NCBI GenBank assembly: GCA_945875545.1
Contig: CAMCKZ010000020.1
Location: 1-42,766, forward strand
DNA: 42,766 nucleotides
Reading direction: 5' to 3'
Source: Polyangium aurulentum
GTDB lineage: Bacteria > Myxococcota_A > Polyangia > Polyangiales > Polyangiaceae
A program made the position numbers and the translations under genes. Numbering within the stretch: position 1 is the stretch's first letter; each line of letters starts with the position of its first letter. This document shows positions 9,722 through 36,094 of the stretch, piece after piece. Under the pieces are notes generated by a model. It was not told the DNA's origin and made no database searches. It saw nothing but the letters and a program-made list of their open reading frames with translations.

Positions 9722-10346
9722 CCGCATCGATGAATGCAACGACGCGCGCTTGGCACTTTTCGCCGGCGCGCGCGCCATCGATCTCGATCCCGCTCGCGAC
9801 GTCCACGCACCACGGGCGAACGGCGTGAATGGCGGCCGCCACATTGCCCGCATGCAGCCCGCCAGCGAGAGACACGCGCCGCTCCAGCGCGAGGGGTGCC
9901 GCCAGCTCGTAAGACCACGAGACGCCCGTTCCGCCCGTTCGCCCGCCCAAGTCAGGGGGCGCATCGAGCAGAATGTACCCGCCTCCAAATGAGCGCGCCC
10001 GCGTGAGGTCGTCGGGCGTCTTGACCGCGACGGCTTTGTAAGCGTGCGGCAGAAAATATTGAAGAAAATCAGGCGTTTCGTCGCCATGCAACTGCAGGCA
10101 ATGAAGGCCCAATTCGGCCTTGAGGCGCGTCAGATCGTTCACCGCCATGTTCGCGACAACGCCCACCACCAGCGTTCGCGCGCCGACTGCGGCGATGATC
10201 GCCCGCGCCGTGTCTTCGGAAATGCATCGCTTCGTGCCGCTCACAAAGTTGAGACCCAAGGAGTCGGCTCCGAGGTCGACGCACATTTCGGCGTCGTGCA
10301 CCGAGGTGATTCCGCAGAGCTTGGTGCGCACGCGAACAGGCGTCAT
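9675..10346 (-). CDS. trpF: Phosphoribosylanthranilate isomerase
   Basis: A 223-residue TIM-barrel enzyme of tryptophan biosynthesis that converts N-(5-phosphoribosyl)anthranilate to the ribulose derivative. Diagnostic segments are KLCGIT with catalytic Cys11, GLNF, SGTKR, VGVVAN, LQLHGDE, GGTG, LAGGLHAGNV and DVASGIE with the catalytic Asp. Its ATG overlaps the fni stop by four bases, so the two are co-transcribed. No other trp gene is nearby. Its tail overlaps sbcC tail-to-tail by 47 bases. Confidence 0.93.
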   Translation of the reverse strand: MTPVRVRTKLCGITSVHDAEMCVDLGADSLGLNFVSGTKRCISEDTARAIIAAVGARTLVVGVVANMAVNDLTRLKAELGLHCLQLHGDETPDFLQYFLPHAYKAVAVKTPDDLTRARSFGGGYILLDAPPDLGGRTGGTGVSWSYELAAPLALERRVSLAGGLHAGNVAAAIHAVRPWCVDVASGIEIDGARAGEKCQARVVAFIDAVTRASAELGSAPPAR

Positions 10347-11416
10347 CGGCTGCCGTCGCCGCCGTCTTCGAGGTGCATGCGAAGGCCAGGCCCGAGGATG
10401 CGCGGCGCCTGGCGAAGGGCGGCGATCGTGGGCGAAGCCGTGAGAAGCATGATGGCCCGAAGCTCCCTTTCGACGGCATCAAAAAAACGGTGAACGCCTG
10501 CGGCGCCGCCCGCGTCAAGAGCCTTCAAGACGGGCCGAGCAAAGCCCGCCATGTGGGCACCGAGGGCCACGGCGCGCGCCACGTCGCCTCCGCTTTGAAT
10601 TCCCCCTGTCGCGATGACCGTGTCGAATCCGAGACGCGACATGCACGCCACGCTCGCAGCTGTGGGAATTCCCCAGTCCCAGAGCGCATTTCCAAGACCC
10701 GCGCCCTCGTCGTCGCCCGCTTGCTCCGCCCGTTTTGTCTCGACGCCGACCCAAGAAGTACCCCCGGCACCGGAAACGTCGACGTGACGAATGCCTGCAC
10801 TCTGCAGCTTTTGTCCGGTTCGCGACGACAGCCCCGAGCCGGTCTCTTTGGCGATCACCGGACACGGCAACTCCGCCACCAGCGTTCGCAGCGTTTCGAC
10901 ACCGCCAGAAAAAGCGCGGTCACCGCCCGGTTGCACAAGCTCCATGGCGGGATTCAGATGAATGCAAAGTGCATCGACTTCCACCGAGGCAATCGCGGCT
11001 TGGACCTCGTGAACCTTCATGGCCTTGGCCTGCACGAGGCCAAGATTTCCGAAGAGCAGCGCGCTTGGTGCCACGTCGCGAACGCGAAAAGTCGACGCGG
11101 TGTGGGGGCGCAGGAGCATGGCCCGCTGCGACCCAAGACCGAACGCGTAGCCGCGTGATTCGGCGACGGCGGCGAGGGCGCGATTGATGCGCGCGGCCTC
11201 CTCGGTGCCGCCTGTCATTGCGGCGATGAGAATCGGCGCGCGCAGGTTTTTTCCTAGAATACGCACCGAGGTGTCGAGGGTTCGCTCGTCGAGTTCCGGG
11301 AGGGCATCGTGCACGAGGCGCACCTCTTCGAGGAGGGTTGTGACCTGCCGAAACCCGACATCGCCGTGGGTGCACAGAGTGAGGTGGTCGGTCTTTCGGT
11401 GAACAATATCGCTCAT
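10343..11416 (-). CDS. fni: Type 2 isopentenyl-diphosphate isomerase (FMN-dependent)
   Basis: A 357-residue TIM-barrel flavoenzyme that interconverts IPP and DMAPP, the step linking the mevalonate operon to the prenyl synthase. Recognisable segments are RKTDHL at the N-terminus, APILIAAMTGG, GLGSQRAML, the HLNPAMELVQPGG substrate loop, KETGSG, DVSGAGGTSW and ATGGIQSGGDVARA near the FMN phosphate site. The length and motif order fit the family. It lies divergently from the prenyl synthase across a 107-base gap, so both units may share control. Confidence 0.95.
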   Translation of the reverse strand: MSDIVHRKTDHLTLCTHGDVGFRQVTTLLEEVRLVHDALPELDERTLDTSVRILGKNLRAPILIAAMTGGTEEAARINRALAAVAESRGYAFGLGSQRAMLLRPHTASTFRVRDVAPSALLFGNLGLVQAKAMKVHEVQAAIASVEVDALCIHLNPAMELVQPGGDRAFSGGVETLRTLVAELPCPVIAKETGSGLSSRTGQKLQSAGIRHVDVSGAGGTSWVGVETKRAEQAGDDEGAGLGNALWDWGIPTAASVACMSRLGFDTVIATGGIQSGGDVARAVALGAHMAGFARPVLKALDAGGAAGVHRFFDAVERELRAIMLLTASPTIAALRQAPRILGPGLRMHLEDGGDGSR

Positions 11417-11523
11417 GAGATTCTTGCGAGTTTCGCTAGCAGTGATCCGGGGAAAGGCATCATCTTCGAGGCGGCGTGGCCGTGGCGGTTGACGAAATCA
11501 TCGCGAGTCTCTAGCGCGGCCTC
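11417..11523. promoter_or_regulatory. Divergent control region of fni-trpF and the mevalonate operon
   Basis: This 107-base gap must hold the promoters of both units unless they are read from further away. Two related elements sit close to the two start codons: GCGAGTTTCGCTAGC at 11426-11440 and GCGAGTCTCTAGC at 11503-11515. No convincing -35/-10 pair could be fixed; a TTGACG at 11489-11494 lacks a good partner. The assignment rests on gene arrangement. Confidence 0.4.
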
Positions 11524-12663
11524 ATGCCTTCCGACGATGCGATCAAGACGGAGCGAACCGCCTCGCTGGCGGGGGCTTTTTCCAGCGCGGACGAATCGAC
11601 CGCGGCAATCGCATTTCAGGCCCATTTGCGGATGGTGAAAGGGCAGGTCGATGGGGCGCTCGCGACCCGTCTCGACGCGCTTCGCGTGCGCCTTCGCGAG
11701 GTTGGGGGAGCGGACCTCGAGGTCGTCGCAGACGCCATGAAATCCCTGGTAATTCGCGGGGGAAAACGCTTTCGACCGGCGCTGCTTGTGGCGGCTTACG
11801 AGGCGTGCGGAGGCGAGGGCGGCATCGCCGCTACGCTTGGCGGCTGCGAGGCCCTGGAGTTGCTGCAAACGTACCTGCTGATTCACGACGACTGGATGGA
11901 CGGCGACGACCTTCGCCGCGGCGGGCCCACGGTGCATGCGGCCTTGCGCGCGCACTTCCAAGACGCTTTTCGCGGCGACGCCTTTGGTATTCTCGCGGGC
12001 GATATGGCGTCGTCCATGGCGCAAGCGGCGCTCGCGGGCTCGCGGCTGGCCCCGGGCCGCGTTTTGGCCGCGTCCAGGGAATTTGCACAGCTTCAGGTCG
12101 ATGTGGTGCTTGGGCAAATGCTTGACATGCAAGGCGCCGCGTCGACCGACGCGCAGATGGATCGCCTCCACGAGCTCAAGACCGGCAGTTACACCGTGCG
12201 CGGGCCGCTTCTCATGGGCGCGGCATTGGCCGCTGCAAGCCCCGCCGCGCGAGCCTCGCTCGAGAGGTTCGCCCGGCCCGTGGGCCTCGCGTTTCAGGTG
12301 CGCGACGACCTCCTTGGAACCTTCGGAGACTCAGCAAAAACAGGCAAATCCGACGTTTGCGATCTTCGCCGAGGCAAGCGCACCGCGCTACTCGTCGAGG
12401 CGGAAAAAGATCCCGCGAGCGCTCCCTATTTGAACGGCGTCGTGGGCGTCGCGCAGGCCTCGGAGGGCGACCTCGCAGCTCTTCGAAATTGGCTCACAGA
12501 GAGCGGTGTTCGCGCCCGCGTGGAGGCCCGCCTTTCATCCCTCCTCGGCGAGGCCCGCCAAGCCCTCGACGACGCCCCGCCCAGCGAGTTCACGGCGCTC
12601 ACGTCGCAGGGCCGGCTCGTCTTGCTTGGGGCCGTTGAAGCCCTTGGCTACCGCGAACAATGA
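11524..12663 (+). CDS. Polyprenyl diphosphate synthase, probable geranylgeranyl diphosphate synthase
   Basis: A 379-residue all-helical trans-prenyltransferase that condenses IPP with allylic diphosphates. It has GGKRFRP near residue 80, the first Asp-rich motif DDWMD at 122-126 followed by RRGGPTVH, and the second Asp-rich motif as DDLLGTFGD starting near 261. The second motif has Gly where the classical DDxxD has its third Asp, as in many bacterial homologues. The first motif has no two-residue insertion and an aromatic Tyr117 five residues upstream; by the known chain-length rule for archaeal-type enzymes this points to a C20 product, but that is inference. It heads the mevalonate operon and overlaps the next gene by four bases. 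Confidence 0.9.
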   Translation: MPSDDAIKTERTASLAGAFSSADESTAAIAFQAHLRMVKGQVDGALATRLDALRVRLREVGGADLEVVADAMKSLVIRGGKRFRPALLVAAYEACGGEGGIAATLGGCEALELLQTYLLIHDDWMDGDDLRRGGPTVHAALRAHFQDAFRGDAFGILAGDMASSMAQAALAGSRLAPGRVLAASREFAQLQVDVVLGQMLDMQGAASTDAQMDRLHELKTGSYTVRGPLLMGAALAAASPAARASLERFARPVGLAFQVRDDLLGTFGDSAKTGKSDVCDLRRGKRTALLVEAEKDPASAPYLNGVVGVAQASEGDLAALRNWLTESGVRARVEARLSSLLGEARQALDDAPPSEFTALTSQGRLVLLGAVEALGYREQ

Positions 12664-13664
12664 GGGCACGAAGAAACGCGATGAGCTCACCCTCCAGCAC
12701 CGAACAGAATCACGCGTCTGCGGGCGGGAAGGTCATTCTTCTCGGGGAACACGCGGTTGTTTACGGGATTCCAGCCCTTGTGCTCGGCGTTTCTCGCGGC
12801 GTGACCGCGCGCCTGCTGGCCGATACATGCACGATGCACGTGCTGCGTATCGAGGGATGGGGCGTCGATGTGGCGACTGGCGACTGCACCACAACAGACC
12901 TGGGGCGAGCGTTCGGGGCCCTTGTGGGGGCATCTGGGGTCCGCGTAGGGGCATCCCCGCGGGTGGTCGAGGTTCACGTTGACCTCCCACCGGGCGGAGG
13001 CCTCGGATGTTCCGCGGCCATCGGCGTTGCGGTGGCGCGTGCCCTCGACGGGGCAGCCTCTCAGGCTGACGTGATGGACCGGGCGATGGCTTGGGAGCGC
13101 ATTTTTCACGGAAATCCCTCAGGAATCGACGTATGGGCTGCGGCTCACGGGGGCATTTTTAGCTTCACTCGCGGCGTGGGAGCGACGCCTCTCGCGCCAC
13201 CATGCACCTTGCATTTGGCCATTGGTTCAACGGGCCGTGCGTCGGGCACCAAGGTCATGGTCGAGAGGGTTCGGGCTCTCAAGCAAGAGGCACCCGAACG
13301 GGTCAACGCCATCTTCGAAGGCATTTCAGGACTTGTGCAGAATGCAACTCACGCTATTTTATGCGGCGACGTTTCCGGTCTTGGTGCCCACATGAATGCG
13401 AATCACGAACACTTGATTAACCTGGGCGTTTCCACACCAGAACTCGACTTCGTCGTGGGCTTGGCGCGAGGCGCGGGCGCTCTCGGGGCAAAACTCACGG
13501 GCGCTGGCGGCGGCGGCTGCGTGGCGGCGTTGGCCGAAAGTGCCGAGCACGCGGAGGCCATTGTGCGCCGCTGGAATCTCGCGGGCGTTGACGGCTGGAC
13601 GACCACGAGTGCCCAGGCACAAGTCGAAATGCCCCCTCGCGGAGCATGGCCGGTCCACCCATGA
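12660..13664 (+). CDS. mvk: Mevalonate kinase
   Basis: A 334-residue GHMP kinase that phosphorylates mevalonate. Motifs are GKVILLGEHAVVYG near the N-terminus, the nucleotide loop PPGGGLGCSAAIG, NPSGIDVW and the C-terminal KLTGAGGGGCV. ATG 12660 overlaps the preceding stop as ATGA, matching the other junctions in this operon; an alternative ATG lies at 12681. Order and overlaps indicate a single transcript with the flanking pathway genes. Confidence 0.93.
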   Translation: MRARRNAMSSPSSTEQNHASAGGKVILLGEHAVVYGIPALVLGVSRGVTARLLADTCTMHVLRIEGWGVDVATGDCTTTDLGRAFGALVGASGVRVGASPRVVEVHVDLPPGGGLGCSAAIGVAVARALDGAASQADVMDRAMAWERIFHGNPSGIDVWAAAHGGIFSFTRGVGATPLAPPCTLHLAIGSTGRASGTKVMVERVRALKQEAPERVNAIFEGISGLVQNATHAILCGDVSGLGAHMNANHEHLINLGVSTPELDFVVGLARGAGALGAKLTGAGGGGCVAALAESAEHAEAIVRRWNLAGVDGWTTTSAQAQVEMPPRGAWPVHP

Positions 13665-14662
13665 CGACCCTCACCGCCACGGCCGTCGCTCACCCGAATA
13701 TTGCTCTCGCGAAGTACTGGGGCAAGCGGGTGGGGCCGGGGAATTACCCAGCAGTTCCAAGTCTTTCCGTGACCCTTGATGGCATGGCGTCGCGCACGAC
13801 TTTGCGGTTCGACGAGCGCCTCCGGGAAGACCGTTTCGTCTTGGGCAACGAGCTTGTGCAGGGTCGCCCGCTGGACCGGATTACGAGCCTCGTCGACGAA
13901 GTGCGCGCCGCTGCCGAAATCACGGCGCGGGTTAGCGTCGTGTCGGCGAACGATTTTCCCACCGCAAGCGGGCTTGCTTCGAGCGCTTCGGGGTTCGCGG
14001 CGTTGGCGTTGGCAGCCGTCTCGGCGGCGGGCCTCGCGTGGTCATCTGAGCAAATAAGCAACCTTGCGCGTCGCGGGTCGGCGAGTGCAGGTCGCAGTAT
14101 TTTTGGCGGCTACGTTCGCTTGCCCGCAGGTCCCATCGGCACCGATGGCTCCATTCCGCTTGCGGCGCAGCCCGTCGCGCCCGCCGATGCCTTGCCCATA
14201 AAAGTTGTCGTGTGCGTCACCCACGCGGGGCCGAAGTCCGTGTCGAGCACCGACGGCATGCTGCGCACCATGGAAAAAAGCCCGTATTACGAAAGATGGC
14301 TATCGTATGCGTGCGAGAATGAGGCGGAGCTTTACCAAGCACTTTTGCAGGGAAATCTACGGTCGGTCGGCGCATTGGCCGAGGCGAGTGCTCTCGCTAT
14401 GCATGCCTCGGCGCTCGCGTGCGGCGTGTCTTATTTCAACGGTGCCACCTTGGAGTTGTGGAAAGAAGTGCGGCTGCTTCGTGAGGCGGGTCTCGCGGTG
14501 TGGGGCACCGTCGATGCGGGCCCGCACATGAAAGTGCTCGTTCGCACGGACCAAGAAACGATCGTGGTTCCGCGCCTTCGCGCCGTGGCGGGCGTCGTGC
14601 GCGTCATCGTCACGACTCCGGGCGGGCAGCCCACAGTGAAGCGGGTTGAGGAGTCGACATGA
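13661..14662 (+). CDS. mvaD: Diphosphomevalonate decarboxylase
   Basis: A 333-residue GHMP-fold enzyme performing the ATP-dependent decarboxylation that yields IPP. Diagnostic segments are HPNIALAKYWGKR, PSLSVTLDG, TASGLASSASGFAALA and RRGSASAGRSIFGG, with DAGPHMKVLV near the C-terminus. The start at 13661 gives the operon's usual ATGA overlap with mvk; the frame is open to another ATG at 13646. A phosphomevalonate decarboxylase role is less likely because a phosphomevalonate kinase gene follows directly. Confidence 0.93.
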   Translation: MTTLTATAVAHPNIALAKYWGKRVGPGNYPAVPSLSVTLDGMASRTTLRFDERLREDRFVLGNELVQGRPLDRITSLVDEVRAAAEITARVSVVSANDFPTASGLASSASGFAALALAAVSAAGLAWSSEQISNLARRGSASAGRSIFGGYVRLPAGPIGTDGSIPLAAQPVAPADALPIKVVVCVTHAGPKSVSSTDGMLRTMEKSPYYERWLSYACENEAELYQALLQGNLRSVGALAEASALAMHASALACGVSYFNGATLELWKEVRLLREAGLAVWGTVDAGPHMKVLVRTDQETIVVPRLRAVAGVVRVIVTTPGGQPTVKRVEEST

Positions 14663-15579
14663 AGGTCTTAGCACCTGGAAAATTGCTGCTATCTGGCGCC
14701 TATGTGGTGCTCGATGGTGCCCCCGCCACGGTCTTGTCCGTGGGCCGCTACGCGAAGGCGAATGCCCTCGTTCGCGAGGTGCCTCGGGCGGCCGAACTGA
14801 TGAAGGCCTATGGTCAGAAGCGAGCGCCAAGCCTTGACCTGAGCGACCTCACCGACGAGGGACGCAAACTTGGTTTGGGGTCGAGCGCGGCGGGGCTCGT
14901 GGCGGCCCTGGCTGCCGACGCGTACGAAGACGGCGTCGATATTGAAGACCGTGTATTCCGCAAGCAACTTTTCGAAAAGGCATTTGCGCTTCACCGCGAG
15001 GTTCAGGGCGGCGGCAGCGGATTCGACGTGGCGGCGGCGGTGTGGGGCGGGTTTTTTCGCTACGAACTCTACGCGGCGGGCAAGGCGCGCGTCACCGATT
15101 TGCTGTGGCCCTCGGGTCTTCAGCTTGAGCTTTTTTCTACGCAAACGAGCGCGCGAACGAGCGAATTCATCGCCGAGATCAACGCCTTTCGCGGCGCTCA
15201 ACCCGAGGTCGCCGGCCCCATGTTTGCGGCTCTTCGCCAGGCCGCTATTCGCGCCTCCGTGGCGTTTGCGGCGGGTAGCATTCAAGATGTGCTGCCCGCC
15301 TTGACGGCCTCTCGCGAGATTCTGGGCGCCATCGGAGAAACGGCCCACGTGCCCGTCGTGCTTCCGCAGGTGCAACGCCTCGGTGTGTTGGCGGCCAGCG
15401 AAGACGCTGTCTTTTACCCTTCCGGCGCGGGTGGCGGCGACGTGTGTGTGCGTCTCGGCGTCGAGCGAGCCTCGGCGCAGTTTCTGCGAGCGGTTGCGGC
15501 CGAGGGGCTAATGCCCCTAAAGGTCATGGCAGATTCCCGCGGCGTTCACGCGGTGGCAGCCGAAGACTCGGAAGACTAA
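14659..15579 (+). CDS. Phosphomevalonate kinase (GHMP type)
   Basis: A 306-residue GHMP kinase predicted to make diphosphomevalonate. It has APGKLLLSGAYVVLDG at the N-terminus, the ATP loop KLGLGSSAAGLVA, GGGSGFDVAAAVWGG, and PSGAGGGDVCVRLG near the C-terminus. It is shorter than the yeast enzyme, as is usual for bacterial forms. Assignment to this step rests on the motifs plus position between mvaD (4-bp overlap) and HMG-CoA reductase, since the other pathway kinase is already accounted for. Confidence 0.87.
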   Translation: MKVLAPGKLLLSGAYVVLDGAPATVLSVGRYAKANALVREVPRAAELMKAYGQKRAPSLDLSDLTDEGRKLGLGSSAAGLVAALAADAYEDGVDIEDRVFRKQLFEKAFALHREVQGGGSGFDVAAAVWGGFFRYELYAAGKARVTDLLWPSGLQLELFSTQTSARTSEFIAEINAFRGAQPEVAGPMFAALRQAAIRASVAFAAGSIQDVLPALTASREILGAIGETAHVPVVLPQVQRLGVLAASEDAVFYPSGAGGGDVCVRLGVERASAQFLRAVAAEGLMPLKVMADSRGVHAVAAEDSED

Positions 15580-15582
15580 TTC

Positions 15583-16929
15583 ATGGCCCGCACCTCACGA
15601 TTTCCTGGGTTCTACAAAATTACCGTGGCCGAGCGTCGCTCGCTCGTGAGCGAATCCACGGGTCTTTCTTCGTCGCAAATGGCCCACGCCTTCGACGCCG
15701 GCGGGCTAAATCCCGAAGCCGCCGACAAATTTGTCGAGAACGTGTTGGGCGTTTACGCGCTGCCCTTGGGTGTGGCGCTTAACGTGCGTGTCAATGGTCA
15801 CGATCACGTCGTGCCCATGGTCGTCGAAGAGCCCAGCGTGGTGGCCGCCGCTTCGAACGCCGCAAAGATGGTGCGGTCCGGCGGAGGGTTTCAGGTCGAG
15901 GTCGACGAGCCCATCATGACAAGCCAGGTTCAGCTGATCGAGGTTGAAGACCTTGCCGGCGGGCCTCAGGCTATCTTGTCAAGAAAAATCGACCTGATAG
16001 CCCGGGCGAACAGGTCAATTCCAGGACTTGTGCGGCGCGGCGGCGGCGTGCGCGACATCGAGGTGCGCCGCATCGGAACCCCGGAAGACCGCATGCTGGT
16101 CGTCCATTTTTTGATCGATTGCCGCGACGCGATGGGTGCCAATTTGGCGAACTCCGTCGCGGAAGCCATGAGCGACGAACTGGCGCGCCTTGTGCGCGGC
16201 CGCGCGGGTCTTCGCATTCTTACAAACCTCAGCGACCGGCGCTGCGTCCGCGTCACGTGCCGCGTGCCGATCGATGTCCTTCAGACCGAGAGCATGAGCG
16301 GGGCCGAGGTCGCCGACGGCATCGTGAACGCCAGCCGATTTGCTGAGCTTGATCCGTATCGCGCGGCCACCCACAACAAGGGAATCATGAACGGCGTCGA
16401 TGCGGTCGTCATCGCCACGGGCAACGATTGGCGAGCCGTGGAGGCCGGTGCACACGCGTTTGCTGCCCGCGACGGGGTCTACAAGCCCCTGGCCACATGG
16501 CGCCGCGACGGTGCCGTGCTGGTCGGAAAACTCGAAATGCCGATGGCTCTCGGTACCGTGGGCGGCACGTTGCGCGTGCACCCTGCGGCGCGTTTGGCCC
16601 TGGAAATGCTGGCGATATCCCACGCCGGCGAACTGGCCGCCATCGCCGCGAGCGTTGGTCTTGCGTCGAACCTCGCGGCGGTTCGGGCCTTGGCCTCCGA
16701 CGGCATTCAGCGTGGCCACATGGCCCTTCACGCGCGCAGCGTGGCGGTGGCGGCGGGCGCCGAAGGCCACGACGTGGAGCGTGTTGCCGCGTGCATCGTC
16801 GAGGCTCGCGACATCACCCTTGAGGCCGCAAAGCGCGCGCTTGAATGCCTGCGCCGAGCCTCCGCGAACGCGGGCGGCGCGGCGGAGTTCGATGAATTGA
16901 GTCTTCAAGACCCGACGGACGAAGCCTGA
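15583..16929 (+). CDS. mvaA: Hydroxymethylglutaryl-CoA reductase, class II
   Basis: A 448-residue soluble reductase without membrane segments, of the class II type first known from Pseudomonas mevalonii. The catalytic set is visible: Glu83 in MVVEEPSVVAA, the Lys in HNKGIMNG, the Asp in DAMGANLANSV and the late His in GHMALHARSVA. Class II enzymes are often degradative and NADH-linked, but placement within a complete IPP-forming operon argues for a biosynthetic role here. It starts three bases after the phosphomevalonate kinase stop. Confidence 0.95.
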   Translation: MARTSRFPGFYKITVAERRSLVSESTGLSSSQMAHAFDAGGLNPEAADKFVENVLGVYALPLGVALNVRVNGHDHVVPMVVEEPSVVAAASNAAKMVRSGGGFQVEVDEPIMTSQVQLIEVEDLAGGPQAILSRKIDLIARANRSIPGLVRRGGGVRDIEVRRIGTPEDRMLVVHFLIDCRDAMGANLANSVAEAMSDELARLVRGRAGLRILTNLSDRRCVRVTCRVPIDVLQTESMSGAEVADGIVNASRFAELDPYRAATHNKGIMNGVDAVVIATGNDWRAVEAGAHAFAARDGVYKPLATWRRDGAVLVGKLEMPMALGTVGGTLRVHPAARLALEMLAISHAGELAAIAASVGLASNLAAVRALASDGIQRGHMALHARSVAVAAGAEGHDVERVAACIVEARDITLEAAKRALECLRRASANAGGAAEFDELSLQDPTDEA

Positions 16930-26398: not shown

Positions 26399-27844
26399 CT
26401 AGTCGCGGTCGTGGGCGGGGTCGGGGGCTGTTGGCGCCGCGCGCAGCTTCAGGGCAAAACGTGTGCCGCGTTGCGACGACCGTTCGAGGTCCAACCGGCC
26501 GCCGGCCGCTTCCACGAGGCCTCTGCAAATCGATAGCCCGAGGCCCGTGCCGCCTCGCGTTGCCTTCGACGTAACGAAGGGCTCGAAGAGGCGGTCACCC
26601 ACGTCGCGGTGCACACCGGGGCCATCGTCTTCGACGAGGATGCGAACCTGCTCGCCGGAAGCTTCGAGCATGATCAGCACGAGGCCAGGCGAATCCCTGC
26701 TCTCTAGCGCTTCGGCGGCATTGAGAATGAGGTTCAAAAGCACCTGACGAAGCGTGCCTTCGCCCATGCTCACGCGTGCGGTAAGTCGGTCTCCCGCGAG
26801 GGCCAAACGCATGTGCGCATAGCGCCGCTGCGGCTCAAAAAAGCGAATCAAGTCGTCGACCACGCCGAGGGGCTCGCACGATTCTTCCGGTGCATCGCGG
26901 GCCGGAAGGTCCGGGCGGGAAAAGTCGAGGAGGCCCCGAACGATGGCGGCGATGCGTTCATGTTCCGAGCGAATTCGCTCAAGAAAGTCGCGCTCTTGTT
27001 CCTCGGGCAGATCCCCCGCAAGCACCAGATCCAAGAGCGCGAGAATGGCCGTTAGCGGATTGCCGATCTCGTGCGCGAGCCCCGCCGACAGGCGACCCAC
27101 GGCAGCAAGGCGCTCGGCTTGAAGGAGCTGTTGCCGCGTGTCGGCCAGGGCGGCGTTGGTTCGTTTCAGTTCATCGTTGGCTGCCTCCGTGAGCGCAAGA
27201 CGTTCGGCCACATCGAGCTCGCGCGTGCGAAGGCTTAAGACCATGGCCCCGATAGCATCATCAAGTGCGCGAATTTCCTCGACGCGCGAGCCGGCAGGCG
27301 GCACATCTGAAAGGCGGGGCAGGGCCGTTCGCCCTTCGCCCACGCGATTGGCCTCGTCCGCGAGGGCCCGAAGTGGACGCGCCACGACGAGCGCCAGCAC
27401 CAGCGACGTCGCCGCAAAAACGGTGATGGCGGCCAGTGCGAGGAGCGCGTTCGCGATGCGAAGAGGCGTGGACGGACGATCGTTCGAGGCGCGCACGACG
27501 CACACGCGCGAGCCTTCGTCCCCCGCGCAGGCCGCCGACGAAGGCATGGTTGTGAGATGCTCAAGGCCCGGGGGGCAAATGCCCGCGCATGCGGAACTCT
27601 TGCAAATACAGGCGAAATCCGATGTGAGGAGCCGATCGATGGGCACCCCAGCTCGAACCGCCTCGTGGGCGAGACGCGCGGATTCTTCGAGTCCGCGGTG
27701 TGCCTCGAGGTTCGTGGCAATGGCGACGAGATCGCCGGTGATGCGGCGAAAGGGAACGACCACGAGCGCGATGGCCACGGCCACGCTCACCAACAAAAAC
27801 ACGCGCAGAGGAAAGGAGCGCGGGGCGGCGACGGGGTCAGTCAT
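26399..27844 (-). CDS. Sensor histidine kinase with cysteine-rich external loop
   Basis: A 481-residue membrane kinase. Helix 1 spans about 13-31, an external loop about 34-128, helix 2 about 131-154, then HAMP, a dimerisation helix with His258 in GLAHEIGNPL, N-box Asn375, DDGPG (406-410) and GGTGLGLSICRG. The loop has six cysteines: C79-x-C81-x4-C86-x3-C90, then C106 and C115. That spacing suggests a metal or redox site in the sensor. ATG 27844 overlaps the feoA stop by eight bases, placing the kinase in an operon with FeoA and a ribbon protein. No response regulator gene is adjacent. Confidence 0.88.
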   Translation of the reverse strand: MTDPVAAPRSFPLRVFLLVSVAVAIALVVVPFRRITGDLVAIATNLEAHRGLEESARLAHEAVRAGVPIDRLLTSDFACICKSSACAGICPPGLEHLTTMPSSAACAGDEGSRVCVVRASNDRPSTPLRIANALLALAAITVFAATSLVLALVVARPLRALADEANRVGEGRTALPRLSDVPPAGSRVEEIRALDDAIGAMVLSLRTRELDVAERLALTEAANDELKRTNAALADTRQQLLQAERLAAVGRLSAGLAHEIGNPLTAILALLDLVLAGDLPEEQERDFLERIRSEHERIAAIVRGLLDFSRPDLPARDAPEESCEPLGVVDDLIRFFEPQRRYAHMRLALAGDRLTARVSMGEGTLRQVLLNLILNAAEALESRDSPGLVLIMLEASGEQVRILVEDDGPGVHRDVGDRLFEPFVTSKATRGGTGLGLSICRGLVEAAGGRLDLERSSQRGTRFALKLRAAPTAPDPAHDRD

Positions 27845-28073
27845 CGGTGGTTGTAAGATGCACGACGATGCCTCGCGCCAGATCTTCTTCCAAGGCGAGG
27901 AGCGAGTCGTCCGAGCGAATGACGTACACCGGGTATCGCTGATCCACGGCGATTTCCATGCCTGGAACGATTCCAAGGGCCGCCAAGCGATCGACGCGGG
28001 CAGGCGGAAGGTCGATGGCACCGATGATGGCGGAGGCGCCGATCGGAATCTGCGACAGGCGAAGGTCGGTCAT
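27837..28073 (-). CDS. feoA: FeoA-family ferrous iron transport accessory protein
   Basis: A 78-residue SH3-like protein of the FeoA family. It has the typical pattern of a Leu-rich start (LSQIPIGASAIIGAI), a LAALGIVPGMEIAV core and a SLLALEEDLARGIVV C-terminal strand. FeoA normally supports the FeoB iron permease, but no FeoB is in the window. Its ATG overlaps the upstream ribbon gene stop by four bases, and its stop overlaps the kinase start. FeoA domains also occur as metal-binding parts of regulators, so a signalling role with the kinase is possible. Confidence 0.85.
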   Translation of the reverse strand: MTDLRLSQIPIGASAIIGAIDLPPARVDRLAALGIVPGMEIAVDQRYPVYVIRSDDSLLALEEDLARGIVVHLTTTDD

Positions 28074-28264
28074 GTTCGACCGAGCGCGTTCCTGGGCTTC
28101 AGAAGGCTCTTCACGAGCTCCACGAGGCGGGAGGTGGGTGGAAACTCGTAGCCGCACGCGGGGCACGTGACGAGGCCGCAGCCCTTGGAGATAGGGCAGC
28201 CCGCTTGGCAGGCGGCGCCTTCCTCGTTGGTAAAATCGTGACCGCACATTCCGCAGGAAATCAT
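28070..28264 (-). CDS. Small seven-cysteine ribbon protein next to FeoA
   Basis: A 64-residue protein with cysteines at 4, 7, 19, 23, 29, 34 and 37: CGMC at the start, CQAGC and KGCG in the middle, and a rubredoxin-like CPACGYEFP. Four of these are enough for a zinc or iron site. Small proteins of this type are often found beside FeoA in bacterial genomes (recalled, not searched). ATG 28264 is the start that begins this domain; the longer open frame to 28507 is not convincing. It overlaps feoA by four bases. Confidence 0.75.
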   Translation of the reverse strand: MISCGMCGHDFTNEEGAACQAGCPISKGCGLVTCPACGYEFPPTSRLVELVKSLLKPRNALGRT

Positions 28265-28742: not shown

Positions 28743-29669
28743 ATGCCGAACGACACGAACCCCGACGCACGCGCACCAAGCGCCCCTTCACACTCCCGAA
28801 CCCGGCCCGTTGACGCGGTCTTTTCGCGGCCCCAACTTCACTGGGTGGGCGATGGATTCCGCGTGGCGGGGTACATGAATGTCGTCCCGAATGCGGCGCG
28901 GCGTTTGAGTCCGTTTCTGCTCCTCGACTACCACCCGCCGTACTTTTATGAGGCAATAACCAGGGCACGCGGCGTTGGCGTGCACCCGCATCGGGGCTTC
29001 GAGACGGTCACGATCGCGTGGGAGGGCCGCGTCGCGCACCACGACAGCACGGGCGCTGGCGGCATCATCGGTCCCGGCGACGTGCAGTGGATGCGCGCGG
29101 CGAGCGGGATTCTTCACAAGGAATTTCATGAGGCCGCGTGGGCAAAAGAGGGTGGCACCATGCACATGGCGCAGCTCTGGGTGAATCTTCCCCGGAGTGA
29201 AAAAATGGGCCCTCCGAGCTACCAGCCCCTCAGCGCGGGCGACATGGGCCTCGTCACGCTTGCGGACGACGCAGGCGTCGTGCGCATTATTGCTGGGGAA
29301 TTTGCAGGCGTTCGCGGGCCCGCGCGAACCGCCACTCGGGTCAACTTGTTCGATGCGCAGCTTCGCGCCGGCGGGCGCGTCACGTTCACGATTCCCCCGA
29401 AAGACAACATCGCGGCCCTCGTGATGCGCGGCGCGGTCCTCGTCAACGGCGTCGCGCGTGCAGGACTGGACACGTTGGTGCTCTTCGAGAACGCCGGCGA
29501 CACCATCGTTATCGAGGCCGCCGAAGACAGTCACGTGCTCCTGATGGGGGGCGAACCCATCGACGAACCGATTTTTCAGCACGGGCCGTTCGTCATGACG
29601 ACGCGCGAGGAAATCGTTCAAGCTTACGAAGACTTTCACAGCGGCAAGTTCGGCTTCCTAGCGAATTAG
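28743..29669 (+). CDS. Pirin-family cupin protein
   Basis: A 308-residue double cupin. The metal ligands match the pirin pattern: His81 and His83 in HPHRGFET, then His125 and Glu127 in GILHKE. Pirins bind iron and include quercetin dioxygenases and redox-sensitive regulators; which role applies is not visible. It stands alone, between the divergent hypothetical gene and the iron-receptor cluster. Confidence 0.92.
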   Translation: MPNDTNPDARAPSAPSHSRTRPVDAVFSRPQLHWVGDGFRVAGYMNVVPNAARRLSPFLLLDYHPPYFYEAITRARGVGVHPHRGFETVTIAWEGRVAHHDSTGAGGIIGPGDVQWMRAASGILHKEFHEAAWAKEGGTMHMAQLWVNLPRSEKMGPPSYQPLSAGDMGLVTLADDAGVVRIIAGEFAGVRGPARTATRVNLFDAQLRAGGRVTFTIPPKDNIAALVMRGAVLVNGVARAGLDTLVLFENAGDTIVIEAAEDSHVLLMGGEPIDEPIFQHGPFVMTTREEIVQAYEDFHSGKFGFLAN

Positions 29670-29776
29670 CTGGGCTTCTCTGGGCCGGCAGCCCCGTTTC
29701 GACCTCCGCGCTGGGGGCTGGGTTCAATGACCACTTGACGCCAGCCTCGGATTGTCCTAGGGGCTTATTGAAAGTG

Positions 29777-32146
29777 ATGTTCAACTTCGTTAACAGAAAC
29801 ACCAAGCGCTTTGCCCACGTTTTCGCGGGCTTTTCGTTGGTGGCTCTGTCGGGCGCCCGCGCGCAGGCCAGCGACCATGCCGCGTCGCCGGAACCTTCGC
29901 CCCCCGCTGAGGCCGCCCCAGCTCCCCCAGCTCCCACAGCTCCCACAGCCCCCACAGCCCCCGTCGCCCCCGCCGCGGAACCTGAGGACGATGACGAGGG
30001 CCTCGACGACGCAACGGCAGCCGCGCCGGAGCCATCCAACGAGCACACCATACCAAAACCAGACGAGGTACGTGTTAACGGAAGCAAGGCCTCGCGCGCC
30101 AGTGGTTCCGTGCAGGTTATCAAGGAAAAACAGCTCAAACGCTTCAAGTACGACGACGTCCACGCGGTGCTCGCGCAAGTGCCCGGCGTGTACACCCGGG
30201 GCGAAGATGGGGTGGGGCTTCGGCCCAACATCGGCCTTCGGGGCGTGAATCCCGACAGGTCCAAGAAAGTGACGCTGACCGAAGACGGCGTGCTCCTGGC
30301 ACCGGCGCCCTATTCGGCACCCGCGGCGTATTACTTTCCTCTTATGTCACGCATCACAGGTATGCGTATTGTAAAGGGAAGTGCCGCGATAGGAGAGGGA
30401 CCCCAAACGATCGCGGGCGCCATCGACTTGACCACCCGGTCGATCCCGGGCCTGGCGGCGGGCGAGCTTGAGCTTGGCGCGGGGCAATTTGGCTACGAGC
30501 GCCTCCGCGGTTGGTTCGGTTCCAGCGACGAAAAGACAGGTTTTCTCCTAGAGGGCGCGCAAATGGGGTCGTCGGGCTTCAAAGAGCTTCCGACCGGCGC
30601 GGACACGGGTTTTTCGCGCAACGAGTGGATGTTCAAGGCGTCGCATGAACTGGAGCACCGCGAAGACCGGAGGCAAGAACTGCGGTTCAAGGCCATCTAC
30701 TCGGACGAGACCTCCAACGAGACGTACCTCGGCCTGTCGGACAGCGACTTTCGCGCGAATCCGAATCGGCGGTACGGCGTGTCTGCCCTCGACCAAATGC
30801 GGAATCACCGCACGGCTCTCGCCCTGACCCACGAGCTCACGCTGGGGCAAAATCTTACCCTGACGACCACGGCGTATCGCAGCGATTTTACCCGCGCTTG
30901 GCGCAAAGTGAACGGCTTTCGCGGGGCCGATCTCTTCGACGTGCTCGGCCCAACGGCGTCGGCGCGCAATGCCGTATTTGTCTCTCTGTTGCGCGGGCAA
31001 GGCGAGTCGTCGAGCAGCGACGAGGCTCTTTTCGTCGGCGTCAATGATCGAACCTACTTTGCCCACGGCGTGCAATCGCGTCTGCGCTGGGCTTTCGACA
31101 CCGGCGCCATGAGTCACCGCTTCGAGGCGGGGATTCGCGCCCACCAAGATGGCCTCACGCGCCGCCACTCCCAAGACGCCTTTCGCATCGTGAATGGCCA
31201 GCTAATTCCCGAAGGAAGCGCCACGGTCACCACCGCCTTCAACGACGCGATGACGACCGCGATCGCGGTGCACGCCCTCGATGCCGTCACGTGGAACGTC
31301 TTCACGCTGACCCCGGGCGTGCGCGTGGAGGCCTTCCGGCAAGCCTTCACCGATCGCTCGAACGGAGGGCCGTCGTCCTCCCTCACGAGCGCCGTTCTCA
31401 TTCCTGGTGTCGGCGCGTTTGCGGGACTGACGAAACATCTCGGCGTCCTCGCCGGCGTTCATCGGGGGTTCAGTCCGCCGGCACCGGGCAGTGCGAACAC
31501 CACGCGTTCCGAGCTCAGTACAAATTATGAGGGCGGAATTCGCTGGGTTCGCGGGGCAGAACGTCTTGAGGCGATTGCATTCTACAACGACTACCAAAAC
31601 ATCACCGACGTATGCACGCTGTCTAGCGGCTGCATAGACGCAAACCTCGACCGTCAATTCAACGGCGGGCGCGCGCGCATTTACGGCCTTGAGGCTTCCG
31701 GCGAACACGACTTTGCGGTTGGTGCGCTGCGCGTTCCGATCATTGCAAGCTACACGTATACGCGGTCGGCGTTTCTCACCGATTTCGTTTCCGCCGATCC
31801 CTTTTTTGGCACCGTGAAGCGCGGCGACGAGCTTCCGTATTTGCCCCGCCACCAGGGCAGCGTCACCGTTGGTGTTGAGGGAAAAGACTGGGCATTGTCG
31901 GGCATCGGCAACTACCTCGCGGCCATGCGCGAGGAGGCGGGCGCGGGCGCCGTCTCAGACGTTCTGCACACCGATCGCCAGTACTGGTTCGACGTCAGCG
32001 GGCGCGCCCGCCTCGGCGAAAACATCACGCTGCAAGTGAACGGGCGAAACATTCTTGGCGACCAGTTCATCGTTTCACACCGCCCCTTCGGCGCCCGTCC
32101 GAACGCCCCGCGCTGGATTCAAGCGGGCCTGACCGTCACTTTTTAA
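29777..32146 (+). CDS. TonB-dependent outer-membrane receptor, FecA-like
   Basis: A 789-residue outer-membrane beta-barrel. A signal peptide (NTKRFAHVFAGFSLVALSG) is followed by a Pro/Ala/Thr-rich linker and an acidic patch, a possible TonB box near DEVRVNG, and the plug domain with VLAQVPGVYTRGEDG, LRGVNPDRSKKVTLTEDG and PQTIAGAIDL. Those plug sequences resemble ferric-dicitrate receptors, so iron-chelate uptake is the best guess. It ends in an aromatic residue (LTVTF), as expected for barrel insertion. ATG 29777 is preferred over the GTG/ATG starts upstream because it begins the signal peptide. Confidence 0.92.
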   Translation: MFNFVNRNTKRFAHVFAGFSLVALSGARAQASDHAASPEPSPPAEAAPAPPAPTAPTAPTAPVAPAAEPEDDDEGLDDATAAAPEPSNEHTIPKPDEVRVNGSKASRASGSVQVIKEKQLKRFKYDDVHAVLAQVPGVYTRGEDGVGLRPNIGLRGVNPDRSKKVTLTEDGVLLAPAPYSAPAAYYFPLMSRITGMRIVKGSAAIGEGPQTIAGAIDLTTRSIPGLAAGELELGAGQFGYERLRGWFGSSDEKTGFLLEGAQMGSSGFKELPTGADTGFSRNEWMFKASHELEHREDRRQELRFKAIYSDETSNETYLGLSDSDFRANPNRRYGVSALDQMRNHRTALALTHELTLGQNLTLTTTAYRSDFTRAWRKVNGFRGADLFDVLGPTASARNAVFVSLLRGQGESSSSDEALFVGVNDRTYFAHGVQSRLRWAFDTGAMSHRFEAGIRAHQDGLTRRHSQDAFRIVNGQLIPEGSATVTTAFNDAMTTAIAVHALDAVTWNVFTLTPGVRVEAFRQAFTDRSNGGPSSSLTSAVLIPGVGAFAGLTKHLGVLAGVHRGFSPPAPGSANTTRSELSTNYEGGIRWVRGAERLEAIAFYNDYQNITDVCTLSSGCIDANLDRQFNGGRARIYGLEASGEHDFAVGALRVPIIASYTYTRSAFLTDFVSADPFFGTVKRGDELPYLPRHQGSVTVGVEGKDWALSGIGNYLAAMREEAGAGAVSDVLHTDRQYWFDVSGRARLGENITLQVNGRNILGDQFIVSHRPFGARPNAPRWIQAGLTVTF
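29922..29976 (+). repeat. 9-bp Pro-Thr-Ala coding repeats
   Basis: Near-repeats of GCTCCCACA/GCCCCCACA encode a Pro-Ala-Pro-Thr run in the receptor's linker before the plug domain. The copies are imperfect and in frame, so the array alters linker length only. Confidence 0.7.
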
Positions 32147-32194
32147 CCCTTAATCACCCTTTTCCATCTCGCACATCGTTACGAAATATCGTCT

Positions 32195-33739
32195 ATGAAA
32201 TTTGCACAAACTTCTGCTTTTTTTCTCGCTATTGTCTACGCAGGCCTCGGCGGTGCGGTCTTCGCGGCGTGCGGTTCCGGCGACGCCGCCACGGCGTCCG
32301 CGACCCCGGACGGTGCGGCTCCCATCGACGGATCAACGGCCAGCGGCGGCGACGGCGGCGATGGCGGGGTGACGGCCGACGGTTCGTCCGATGCCTCCGA
32401 TGCCTCCGATGCCTCCGATGCAAGGGTGGTGGACGCAGGCTCCACGATGGCCGCGCAAGTGCTGCTGCGCCCCCTTTCGCCGACCGGCGCCGATCGGTTT
32501 TTTGGCGTCACCTACGATGCGCAGAACCGCATTGTGGCCGTGGGGCAGGTGTGTCCGGAGGGTACCGGGGGCGACTGTGAGAGCGCGATTGCCAGGTTTT
32601 TGCCTGATGGTTCTCCCGACCTCGCGTTCGGCGCGGCGGGGGTCGTCAAGAGAAATCTTGCGGCCGGAACGAGCGGAGAGACGGCGCGCGGCGTCCTTGT
32701 CACCGCCGACGGCAAGATTGTGATTGCGGCCATTGGCGAGGAGCAGGGGGCGGCCGACGCCCGTGAGCGCGACGTGTATCTTGCACGCTTTCTGAGCACC
32801 GGCGCCATCGACACTTCTTTCGGCACCAACGGCGTCGCGGTCTTCAATCTTGCGCCGGGAAAACTCGTCGGCACGGCGTACAAAACCGACGCCCAGGTTG
32901 GCCTGGCCGCCGACGCGACGGGGCGACTCTACGTCAGCGGTTCGGCGCTGGCCATAGGTCGAAATGACAGCGATTTTGCAGTACTTCGTTGCAGCGCGGA
33001 CGGCGTGCGCGACGCGTCTTTCGGCACGGGCGGTCTCTTCACCCTCGACATCTCGAACGCCGATGCCTCGGCGCGAACCCTCGCGATTTCCCCAAGCGGG
33101 CAAGTCGTTGCCGCGGGGTACATGACGGAATCCGGCGGTGCCATTGTGCCTGTAGTCTACAGGCTTTCGGCCGGCGGCCTTCTCGACACGTCGTTCGGTG
33201 TGGGGGGCGTCTTTACCCAGGCGGTTTTGGCCGCGCAAACCGAGGCCTACGACGTCGCGTTTCAGGGCGACCGCCTCGTCACCAACGGCTACGGGCGCGG
33301 AACGACCAGCGAAGAATTTGACTATATTTCCCTGCGAATAACCGGGTCGGGTGCCCTCGATACCACCTTCGGCACAAGCGGTTTTGTCCGCGTCGATCGG
33401 AACGGTTTCAAGGATCAGGGGCGCGCCGTTGTGGTGCTCGCCGATAAGCGCGTGCTCCTCGTCGGTTCGGGCCGCGCCACCGCGAATGACGCGGACGGAA
33501 TGCTTGTACTCCTCACGGAAAATGGAACGCCGGACACGGCGCTCGGCGCGCGCGGTCAACGCCTCTTTGACCTCGGTGGCACGAACGACACCCTGAGCGC
33601 CGCGGCGAAATCCTCCGATGGACTACGGGCCGTGGCGGTCGGAACGCGAGCATTTTTGCCCGCAGCCGCCGATGCGGGCGTCGACGCTGGCACGGTCAAA
33701 GACGACGACGGCGCCCTCGTGATCGTGAATCTCCGCTAG
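32195..33739 (+). CDS. Delta-60 repeat lipoprotein
   Basis: A 514-residue exported protein, probably a lipoprotein with Cys26 (the lipobox VFAAC is slightly atypical). A Gly/Ser/Asp-rich linker leads to a beta-propeller-like domain with six delta-60 units, each marked by a phrase like GAIDTSFGTNGV (around LPDGSPDLAFG, GAIDTSFG, GVRDASFG, GLLDTSFG, GALDTTFG and GTPDTALG). Such repeats are common in large myxobacterial surface proteins; the ligand is unknown. It begins 48 bases after the receptor stop and is followed at 25 bases by the imelysin gene, so the three are likely co-transcribed. Confidence 0.87.
   Translation: MKFAQTSAFFLAIVYAGLGGAVFAACGSGDAATASATPDGAAPIDGSTASGGDGGDGGVTADGSSDASDASDASDARVVDAGSTMAAQVLLRPLSPTGADRFFGVTYDAQNRIVAVGQVCPEGTGGDCESAIARFLPDGSPDLAFGAAGVVKRNLAAGTSGETARGVLVTADGKIVIAAIGEEQGAADARERDVYLARFLSTGAIDTSFGTNGVAVFNLAPGKLVGTAYKTDAQVGLAADATGRLYVSGSALAIGRNDSDFAVLRCSADGVRDASFGTGGLFTLDISNADASARTLAISPSGQVVAAGYMTESGGAIVPVVYRLSAGGLLDTSFGVGGVFTQAVLAAQTEAYDVAFQGDRLVTNGYGRGTTSEEFDYISLRITGSGALDTTFGTSGFVRVDRNGFKDQGRAVVVLADKRVLLVGSGRATANDADGMLVLLTENGTPDTALGARGQRLFDLGGTNDTLSAAAKSSDGLRAVAVGTRAFLPAAADAGVDAGTVKDDDGALVIVNLR
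32387..32422 (+). repeat. 9-bp Ser-Asp-Ala coding tandem repeat (4 copies)
   Basis: Four copies of TCCGATGCC (the last ends in A) encode Ser-Asp-Ala in the linker of the delta-60 lipoprotein. The repeat is in frame and only affects linker length. Confidence 0.9.
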
Positions 33740-33764
33740 CAGACGCTCGGAAAGAACTGCCACC

Positions 33765-35108
33765 ATGCCCGCGACAGCCAAGCCCTTTTCCGTAGCTTCG
33801 ACCCGGTCGCCTACGCGCCAATACCGGTGGCGAGTCGTCGGCGCCTGCGCCTTGATCTTGGCCGTCGGTGCAGGCTGCAAGAAACCCCTGCCCACCGAAA
33901 CCGTGCACACCGGCGCGCCTCCGGTCGGCCCCGCGGTCGGCCCCGTCGATGCGTCGGCACCGGTCCCCTGGGACGGCGGGTTTGGCTCCAACGAAGTCTT
34001 CACAAAGGCTGGATTTCTTGCGGAAATGTCCGCATGCACCGTGGGGCGCGTGGGCGACTTTTTGTCGAAATCGGTCCGCCTTCGGGACGCGATCGCGGCC
34101 CTCGGACCCGTGCCCGCGGGCGCCGATGCGGGCGCGGAGTCGGGCCTGGAGGCCGACGCGAAGGCCGCCTGGCGCGACGCCTTTTCGTCGTTCCAAGAGT
34201 TGGAGGTGTTTCGTTTTGGTCCCGCCGCTGCACCGCCCGCGGCGGGTGCCATGGGTCTGCGCGATGAAATGTATGCGTGGCCCCTCGTAAGCCGGTGCCG
34301 TATGGACGAAACGCTCGTCGACAAGAGCTATGAAACCCTGGCGTTTTCCTCGTCTCTCGTGAACGGCCGGGGGCTCGCAGCCGTTGACTATCTGTTGTAT
34401 GACACAGGTACGAGCAACGGCTGTTCGGAGTTTTCCGTCATCAACGGGAGTGGGTCTTGGGCCGCGCTCACCGCCAGTGATCTCAAGGAGCGACGACGCC
34501 GGTACGCCGCGGCGGCCGCAGCCGATGTGGCCTCGCGCGCGGGGGAGCTTGCGCGCGCGTGGGCCCCCGGGGGCGGAAACTTTCAGCAAGCGTTTGCCGC
34601 GGCGGGTACGGGATCGGTGGTTTTTCTCAAGGAATCCGACGCACTCAATGCTCTGACCGACGCCCTTATCTACATCGACGACGAGGTGAAAGACTGGAAG
34701 CTCGGAAAGCCCTTGGGGTACTTCGAGTGCACGACGGGCACCTGTCCGGGTGCCGTAGAGGCGCTGTACTCCCGGCAGTCTACAGCGGGGGTACAGAGTA
34801 ATCTCAAGGCTGCGCGTCGTATTGTTCAGGGATGTGGTGAAGATTACGCTGGCCTCGGCCTCCACGACTGGCTGCGGTCGCTCCCGGCGGAAGATCTCGC
34901 AAATCGCCTGCTCGGCGCGCTCGTAGCGGCACAAATGGCTGTCGACACGCTGGGCAGTTCGCCCATCGACGAGCTGCTCGCCCGAGAGCCTGCGAAGGTT
35001 GCCCTCGCCCACGCCAATGTGAGGGCGTTCGCGGCGCTCTTCAAGGGCGAGGTCCTTGCGGCCCTAACCTTGCAGCTGCCCGCGAGTGCGCAGGGCGACA
35101 ACGACTGA
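33765..35108 (+). CDS. Imelysin-like lipoprotein
   Basis: A 447-residue exported protein with a lipobox at AVGAGC (Cys38). The mature all-helical body fits the imelysin (M75) family, whose members are iron-regulated envelope proteins. The family motif GxHxxE appears as G203-LAAV-D208, with Ala in place of His and Asp in place of Glu, so it is probably not a peptidase and more likely binds a metal or chelate. It sits in one unit with a TonB-dependent iron receptor, which supports iron handling. Confidence 0.82.
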   Translation: MPATAKPFSVASTRSPTRQYRWRVVGACALILAVGAGCKKPLPTETVHTGAPPVGPAVGPVDASAPVPWDGGFGSNEVFTKAGFLAEMSACTVGRVGDFLSKSVRLRDAIAALGPVPAGADAGAESGLEADAKAAWRDAFSSFQELEVFRFGPAAAPPAAGAMGLRDEMYAWPLVSRCRMDETLVDKSYETLAFSSSLVNGRGLAAVDYLLYDTGTSNGCSEFSVINGSGSWAALTASDLKERRRRYAAAAAADVASRAGELARAWAPGGGNFQQAFAAAGTGSVVFLKESDALNALTDALIYIDDEVKDWKLGKPLGYFECTTGTCPGAVEALYSRQSTAGVQSNLKAARRIVQGCGEDYAGLGLHDWLRSLPAEDLANRLLGALVAAQMAVDTLGSSPIDELLAREPAKVALAHANVRAFAALFKGEVLAALTLQLPASAQGDND

Positions 35109-35125
35109 TCGCGGCCCGAATCGCC

Positions 35126-36094
35126 ATGACCCTCGTAGAAGAAATGCTTGCATTGTGCACGGAGGCGGTGCGCGCCGTGGTGCAACCCGATAAGCGCGTT
35201 TACTGGCTTCATTTGCTGGTGGCGGCGCTCATCGTTGTCGGTGTGTGGGCGCGTGGGTCCCGAAAAAAATCTCTCTTGAAGCTGTTTTTTGATCCCGCGC
35301 TTTGGCTTCACCCGTCGGCGCGCGAAGACTACGGGCTCTTTTTGTTGCGGGGCATTTTCCGCGTCGTGGTCTTTGCCCCCTTTGCGCTGGGCGCGGTTTC
35401 ATTGGCTGCTGGCCTGGCTTTTCGCCTCCAAGAGACCTTCGGCACCCCTTCGTTCACCGGTATTTCGCACGGGGCCGCGATTGCCATTTTCACCGTGGCC
35501 CTATTTGCCATCGAAGACTTCTCGCGCTTTTTGTTCCACTTCGCGGCCCATCGCTGGGGGTGGCTTTGGGAGTTTCACAAAGTTCATCACTCGGCGGAGG
35601 TCTTGACCCCGCTCACCCTTTACCGGGTGCATCCGCTGGAACTCGTGATGAACCGCACGCGCGGCACGCTAACGACGGCCGCGGTGGCAGGGGTCTTGTG
35701 CTGGGTATTTCCTGGAAAAATACAGGGTCTCGAGATTCTTGGCGTGGATGCCCTCGGGTTTTTGTGGTCGACAGCGGGCGCCAACCTAAGGCATTCCCAC
35801 GTATGGGTGTCGTATGGGTCTCGTATGGAGCACTGGCTGATAAGCCCCGCGCAGCACCAGATCCACCACAGCGTGGAGCCTCGGCACCACGAACGAAATT
35901 TTGGAACGGCGCTCGCGGTCTGGGACAGGCTTTTTGGAACCCTCTACGTAACTGCCGGACGCGAGGTTTTGCGCATGGGTCTTTCGCCCCAAGACAGAAC
36001 CCATGGCCGTGGAATCATTCGACTTATCGTTGAGCCGATCTTCCGTTCGGCGGGCAAGGTTGTCTCGCCCGTGGCGGCGCTTTGGCGGTCCTAA
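35126..36094 (+). CDS. Sterol desaturase/fatty acid hydroxylase-family membrane protein
   Basis: A 322-residue integral membrane di-iron enzyme candidate. Several membrane helices surround the eight-histidine set: His138-x3-His142, HKVHH (151-155), His169, and a late QHQIHH. These ligands bind two irons for O2-dependent hydroxylation or desaturation of a lipid. The substrate cannot be read from the sequence. It starts 17 bases after the imelysin gene, and is last in that plus-strand unit. Confidence 0.88.
   Translation: MTLVEEMLALCTEAVRAVVQPDKRVYWLHLLVAALIVVGVWARGSRKKSLLKLFFDPALWLHPSAREDYGLFLLRGIFRVVVFAPFALGAVSLAAGLAFRLQETFGTPSFTGISHGAAIAIFTVALFAIEDFSRFLFHFAAHRWGWLWEFHKVHHSAEVLTPLTLYRVHPLELVMNRTRGTLTTAAVAGVLCWVFPGKIQGLEILGVDALGFLWSTAGANLRHSHVWVSYGSRMEHWLISPAQHQIHHSVEPRHHERNFGTALAVWDRLFGTLYVTAGREVLRMGLSPQDRTHGRGIIRLIVEPIFRSAGKVVSPVAALWRS

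Follow-up and report, generated by a model that had tools for sequence, protein, structure and literature searches.

The window analyzed here is the whole stretch of 42,766 nucleotides from Polyangium aurulentum. On its minus strand are three genes that an earlier note on this DNA described as overlapping by four and eight bases. The open reading frames and coordinates were confirmed, and the features are:

28070-28264, minus strand: gene for a seven-cysteine ribbon protein of 64 amino acids, whose family lies directly behind FeoB elsewhere
27837-28073, minus strand: gene for FeoA, 78 amino acids, matching Pfam PF04023
26399-27844, minus strand: gene for a membrane histidine kinase of 481 amino acids, in the feoB-linked kinase clade
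27488-27622, minus strand: the six-cysteine part of the outer loop of the kinase, about residues 75-119

The ribbon and FeoA genes overlap by 4 bases, and the FeoA and kinase genes by 8 bases. FeoA scores 44.8 bits against a cut-off of 23, and it is the sole copy in the genome (G000). The order ribbon-FeoA-kinase recurs beyond this genome: it is found in each of the three genus genomes (G000, G001 and G002), in agreement with the earlier proposal that the three genes form one unit. The 4-base overlap of ribbon and FeoA is kept in each, and the FeoA/kinase junction varies, being an 8-base overlap, a 7-base gap or a 1-base gap.

The plus strand close to the unit has an iron-flavored character from 28743 to 36091, with genes for a pirin (28743-29669), a TonB-dependent receptor (29735-32146), a DUF5122 beta-propeller, an imelysin-family protein (33765-35108, PF09375) and a fatty-acid hydroxylase. 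Elsewhere in the window, at 10343-16929, there is by reading an apparently complete mevalonate-pathway cluster, comprising a type 2 IPP isomerase, a polyprenyl synthase, mevalonate kinase, diphosphomevalonate decarboxylase, a further GHMP kinase and HMG-CoA reductase.

The kinase has two transmembrane helices, at about residues 11-34 and 127-152, that enclose an outer loop. They are followed by a weak HAMP match (17.5 bits, below the cut-off of 25), HisKA (55.4 bits) and HATPase_c (81.7 bits). HisKA has the sequence HEIGNP at His258, and the H, N and G boxes are intact. The loop had been noted for a C-x-C-x4-C-x3-C pattern plus two more cysteines, and we locate these at positions 79, 81, 86, 90, 106 and 115. 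Six cysteines within 37 residues have a probability of about 2e-6 at a cysteine rate of 1%. Comparing G000 with G002, all six cysteines are kept while 15 of the 45 other residues are identical. The corresponding values for G001 are four of six and 9 of 45, with the C-x-C pair gone. The cysteines are kept better than their surroundings, and are therefore under evolutionary constraint. This conservation, on which the earlier note had staked its reading, holds inside the genus (six, six and four cysteines in G000, G002 and G001) but the cysteines are nearly absent from orthologous kinases. Those of G003, L066 and L166 (G177) have two, nearly all others have none or one, and a few have two or three over a wider stretch. 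By these counts the six-cysteine loop is a lineage-specific elaboration. The idea that loop cysteines accompany feo linkage fitted the first 16 kinases (five feo-associated with 2-6 cysteines, eleven others with 0-1). It was rejected on 20 further loci, which include feoB-linked kinases without loop cysteines.

The four cysteines common to the genus would fit two disulphides. It is possible that the cysteines are purely structural, forming disulphides that replace a lost sensor fold and sensing neither thiols nor metal. The genus loop is shorter than that of most orthologues (about 90 compared with about 125 residues) and poorly conserved apart from its cysteines, it lies in an oxidizing compartment, and the loss of the C-x-C pair in G001 is also consistent with a structural role. 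Nothing speaks directly against this, structure prediction being uninformative in the region (pLDDT under 50 for residues 74-126 of the AlphaFold model), and we place its likelihood only a little below even. That the loop senses thiols or metal is a more tentative suggestion, at the level of the genus.

The connection of the kinase with Feo proposed in the earlier note extends far beyond G000. An N-terminal profile of the kinase matches 168 of the 183 genomes of the order, usually once per genome. When these matches were compared with those for FeoB_C we found 18 FeoB-kinase pairs within 2.7 kb, in 17 genomes of the family, always on the same strand and with the kinase directly downstream of FeoB. 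The intergenic gaps are often just 4-40 bases. No pair in any other arrangement was found within 10 kb. Inspection of the DNA of G163 also revealed FeoB followed by the kinase in this arrangement. The linked genomes are 17 of the 117 for which both matches are listed, and many of the assemblies are fragmented. In a tree of 47 kinases that includes close paralogues of G000 and G002, the window kinase is placed with a clade from related genera (support 99/91) that contains none of the tested paralogues.

Two types of transporter are found on the upstream side of the kinase. Type I is FeoA-FeoB, and type II is a long FeoB-ribbon-FeoA, which precedes a kinase orthologue in G003 (L016), L066 and G177 (L166). 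The genes rplU-rpmA-HAD precede type I in G012 and type II in G177, and the same kinase lies behind both. The same flanks thus surround both FeoB types (L165, type I; L166, ribbon-type), suggesting that the kinase kept its seat and that the transporter module was exchanged in place at this site. The ancestral site cannot be read in G000, where rpmA is at the very end of contig C27. In G003 the order is FeoB-ribbon-FeoA-CxxCH lipoprotein-kinase; the FeoA, lipoprotein and kinase genes touch, and the contig ends inside the kinase. The small lipoprotein-like proteins at L016:6861-7154 (between FeoA and the kinase of G003) and L066:9449-9751 (behind FeoA) each have a single CxxCH, as in a monohaem cytochrome, and no Pfam match. 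At L066 the Feo genes and the kinase are separated by a gene on the opposite strand. Two related proteins, probably outer-membrane beta-barrels, are encoded between the Feo genes and the kinase at L165:4214-5188 and L166:4284-5384, that of L165 having no Pfam match.

Four changes suffice to explain the linked or unlinked state across a tree of 56 kinases, and the association is therefore old and patchy rather than the result of one recent event. Because FeoB is not seen beside most of the order's orthologous kinases, a Feo-specific role is not general, or it was gained or lost more than once. Nor is the common feature of the linked kinases cysteine-based, since most of those behind type I feoB lack loop cysteines, and the outer loop is nearly absent in L157 and L176. 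The kinase could be a mere long-standing neighbor of a split Feo system, co-transcribed by virtue of its position and sensing something unrelated such as cell-envelope stress. Most orthologues are indeed found away from FeoB in mixed contexts, the feo-linked loops have no evident common metal motif, and a polysaccharide deacetylase gene is among the downstream neighbors at the conserved locus. Yet linked kinases invariably share the strand of FeoB and come immediately after it, and the linkage was kept with two different FeoB types, and with ribbon-FeoA after the genus split its Feo genes. We consider the neighbor explanation unlikely. As an operon feature the Feo-associated kinase looks real, and a functional link between kinase and Feo is reasonably likely. 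We found no description of a kinase downstream of feoB in the open-access literature.

Histidine kinases of this type phosphorylate response regulators. As previously remarked, the unit encodes none, nor was one detected next to any of the feoB-linked kinases that were examined. The suggestion that the signal passes to the FeoA/ribbon pair consequently finds no support. G016 and G024 belong to an unlinked sister group, and in both the orthologous kinase has upstream of it, on its own strand, a gene for a REC protein with a Lys/Ala-rich tail; in G024 this lies two genes away. G000 has one close homologue of this protein (C66:16094-16465, 60% identity, Pfam Response_reg 78.7 bits), which is a candidate partner of the kinase, and a lead only. 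This protein (L181), L182 and L179 all have a receiver domain with a long histone-H1-like Lys/Ala/Pro repeat tail, which is conserved in the family.

The ribbon protein has the pattern C-x2-C-x11-C-x3-C-x5-C-x4-C-x2-C, with seven cysteines in 64 amino acids. Across 13 bacterial and archaeal sequences, the cysteines at 4, 7, 19, 23, 29, 34 and 37 show little or no variation. The protein matches no family above cut-off in Pfam or NCBIfam. Its gene lies directly behind FeoB in Myxococcota (L065-L068, L070), Marinimicrobia (L069, L071), Eisenbacteria (L076), a deltaproteobacterium (L080) and Hermodarchaeota (L072-L075), and FeoA or a larger FeoA-bearing protein adjoins it at most of these loci. 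Among true ribbon loci, FeoB is missing only in the genus of the window. That the ribbon gene follows FeoB across phyla, with these exceptions alone, argues that the protein is a companion of FeoB, widely spread and unnamed. Its putative metal content is read from its cysteines alone. Further ribbon-like matches (L077-L079, L081-L087) were set aside, as they have no feo gene and most lie inside long unrelated open reading frames. The AlphaFold model (pLDDT 67) has two knuckle-like hairpins and is too weak for a fold search, and among solved structures only generic zinc fingers and rubredoxins were weakly akin to the protein. We found no description of the ribbon protein, or of feoA or feoB with a zinc ribbon, in the open-access literature. 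Three of the four FeoB-ribbon pairs in Hermodarchaeota have FeoA-bearing proteins encoded on the upstream side of FeoB. At L070:8994-9851 and L069:9200-9838 the FeoA domain is C-terminal in a larger protein (~286 amino acids in L070) that reads like a DtxR-type regulator and is encoded directly behind FeoB-ribbon.

FeoB is a GTP-gated Fe2+ permease. The earlier note remarked that there is no FeoB permease, and this is true of the locus but not of the genome. On contig C81 of G000 we found a FeoB G domain (E 1.2e-43; Pfam FeoB_N 146 bits) in an open reading frame that runs off the contig end, and FeoB is also present in G001 and G002, ruling out its absence from the genome. FeoB_C was not found in the G000 assembly, for which truncation of the gene in a draft assembly provides an explanation, short of proof. 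FeoB_C is present in G002, and both Gate and FeoB_C in the G003 homologue. G002 encodes a complete FeoB of 903 amino acids and G001 the 3' end of feoB, in each case at a locus separate from the ribbon-FeoA-kinase unit; in G000 and G001 feoB is cut by a contig end, so that its neighbors are visible on one side only. Against ribbon-linked FeoBs from the order (L016, L066, L067, L068, L166) the FeoB of the genus reaches 729-795 bits, and against the order's other FeoBs only about 113-208 bits. The genus has therefore kept the matching transporter and has split only the operon. The linkage of feoA and feoB, lost in G000, G001 and G002, is kept in G003, G045, G090, G177 and L066. It had been suggested that the unit may act in signaling rather than transporting iron. 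With a ribbon-type FeoB encoded elsewhere in all three genomes this is not supported, and the unit is most simply an accessory part of a split Feo transporter. A model in which ribbon and FeoA no longer serve transport, but take input from the Cys-loop kinase as an output or metal-sensing device, would accommodate the local absence of FeoB, the overlapping genes and the cysteine-rich loop, but is highly improbable given that a matching FeoB is kept in three of three genus genomes, that the ribbon protein accompanies FeoB across phyla and that histidine kinases act on response regulators.

A Fur-box-like site was sought upstream of the ribbon gene and feoB in the genus, and none was found. The best genus matches were 8-11 of 19 positions for the E. 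coli type and 8-9 of 17 for the deltaproteobacterial type (PMC545781), with no clean palindrome for either. A match of 13 of 17 to the latter was obtained only upstream of feoB in G045.

Feo systems usually have feoA and feoB in one operon. In H. pylori the two genes are 116 kb apart and both are required (PMC10353542), so that location in one operon is not essential. The genus of the window likewise has them at separate loci, but here feoA is kept with the ribbon and kinase genes. The system resembles the FeoABC of Gammaproteobacteria in having FeoA, FeoB and a small cysteine-containing accessory protein. It differs in that the accessory is a seven-cysteine ribbon with no match to the FeoC Pfam family, that FeoB is at another locus and that a kinase is attached. 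By the features tested the locus belongs to Feo, while it is not FeoABC in the strict sense. The FeoB-associated Cys-rich protein (PF12669) is also small, rich in cysteine and encoded beside feoB (PMC8749426), as is the ribbon protein elsewhere, but the latter is without an evident transmembrane stretch, has another cysteine pattern and does not match PF12669. The kinase may be compared with BqsS/CarS, BasS/PmrB and VgrS. To our knowledge, none of these is part of any feo operon. They are iron-sensing histidine kinases with an ExxE motif, and N/O ligands were shown for BqsS (PMC12666569). All are membrane kinases with an outer sensor region connected with iron, but the window loop has six cysteines instead, and neither ExxE nor ExxxE as defined there was found on reading residues 36-126 by eye.

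What was observed directly is the gene structure, the genome-wide presence and type of FeoB, the conserved linkage that ties ribbon to FeoB/FeoA and the kinase to FeoB, and the conservation of the cysteines. Building on these we propose that the locus is probably the accessory and sensory half of a Feo system split in the genus, with an envelope-sensing kinase. The assignment to a split Feo system is the firmer part of this, and we hold it with good confidence. The permease encoded at the second locus would bring in Fe2+, with ribbon and FeoA acting on its cytoplasmic side, presumably by protein contacts. The co-encoded membrane kinase would report a condition of the envelope tied to the supply of Fe2+. 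Its loop in the genus would be a small cysteine-stabilized module with at least two cysteine pairs, and three in two species; disulphide formation or binding of a thiophilic metal is probable. Output would pass through a response regulator encoded elsewhere, which would most likely adjust Feo genes or other iron/redox genes.

A wider reading, which we offer as speculative and rather doubtful, is that members of this myxobacterial order have a variety of Feo with its own dedicated sensor kinase, one type of which includes a new seven-cysteine accessory protein that Marinimicrobia and Hermodarchaeota also have, and that in the genus the kinase uses the six-cysteine loop to sense the envelope's thiol/redox or metal state and so sets ferrous-iron uptake. 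What is known of Feo regulation concerns mostly Fur, FNR and a few unlinked two-component systems. If the proposal is true, a kinase directly behind feoB across the family, and retained with feoA after feoB had moved away, would provide a direct handle on envelope sensing of ferrous-iron uptake. The ribbon protein would be an entry point to what the small cysteine-rich accessories of Feo do.
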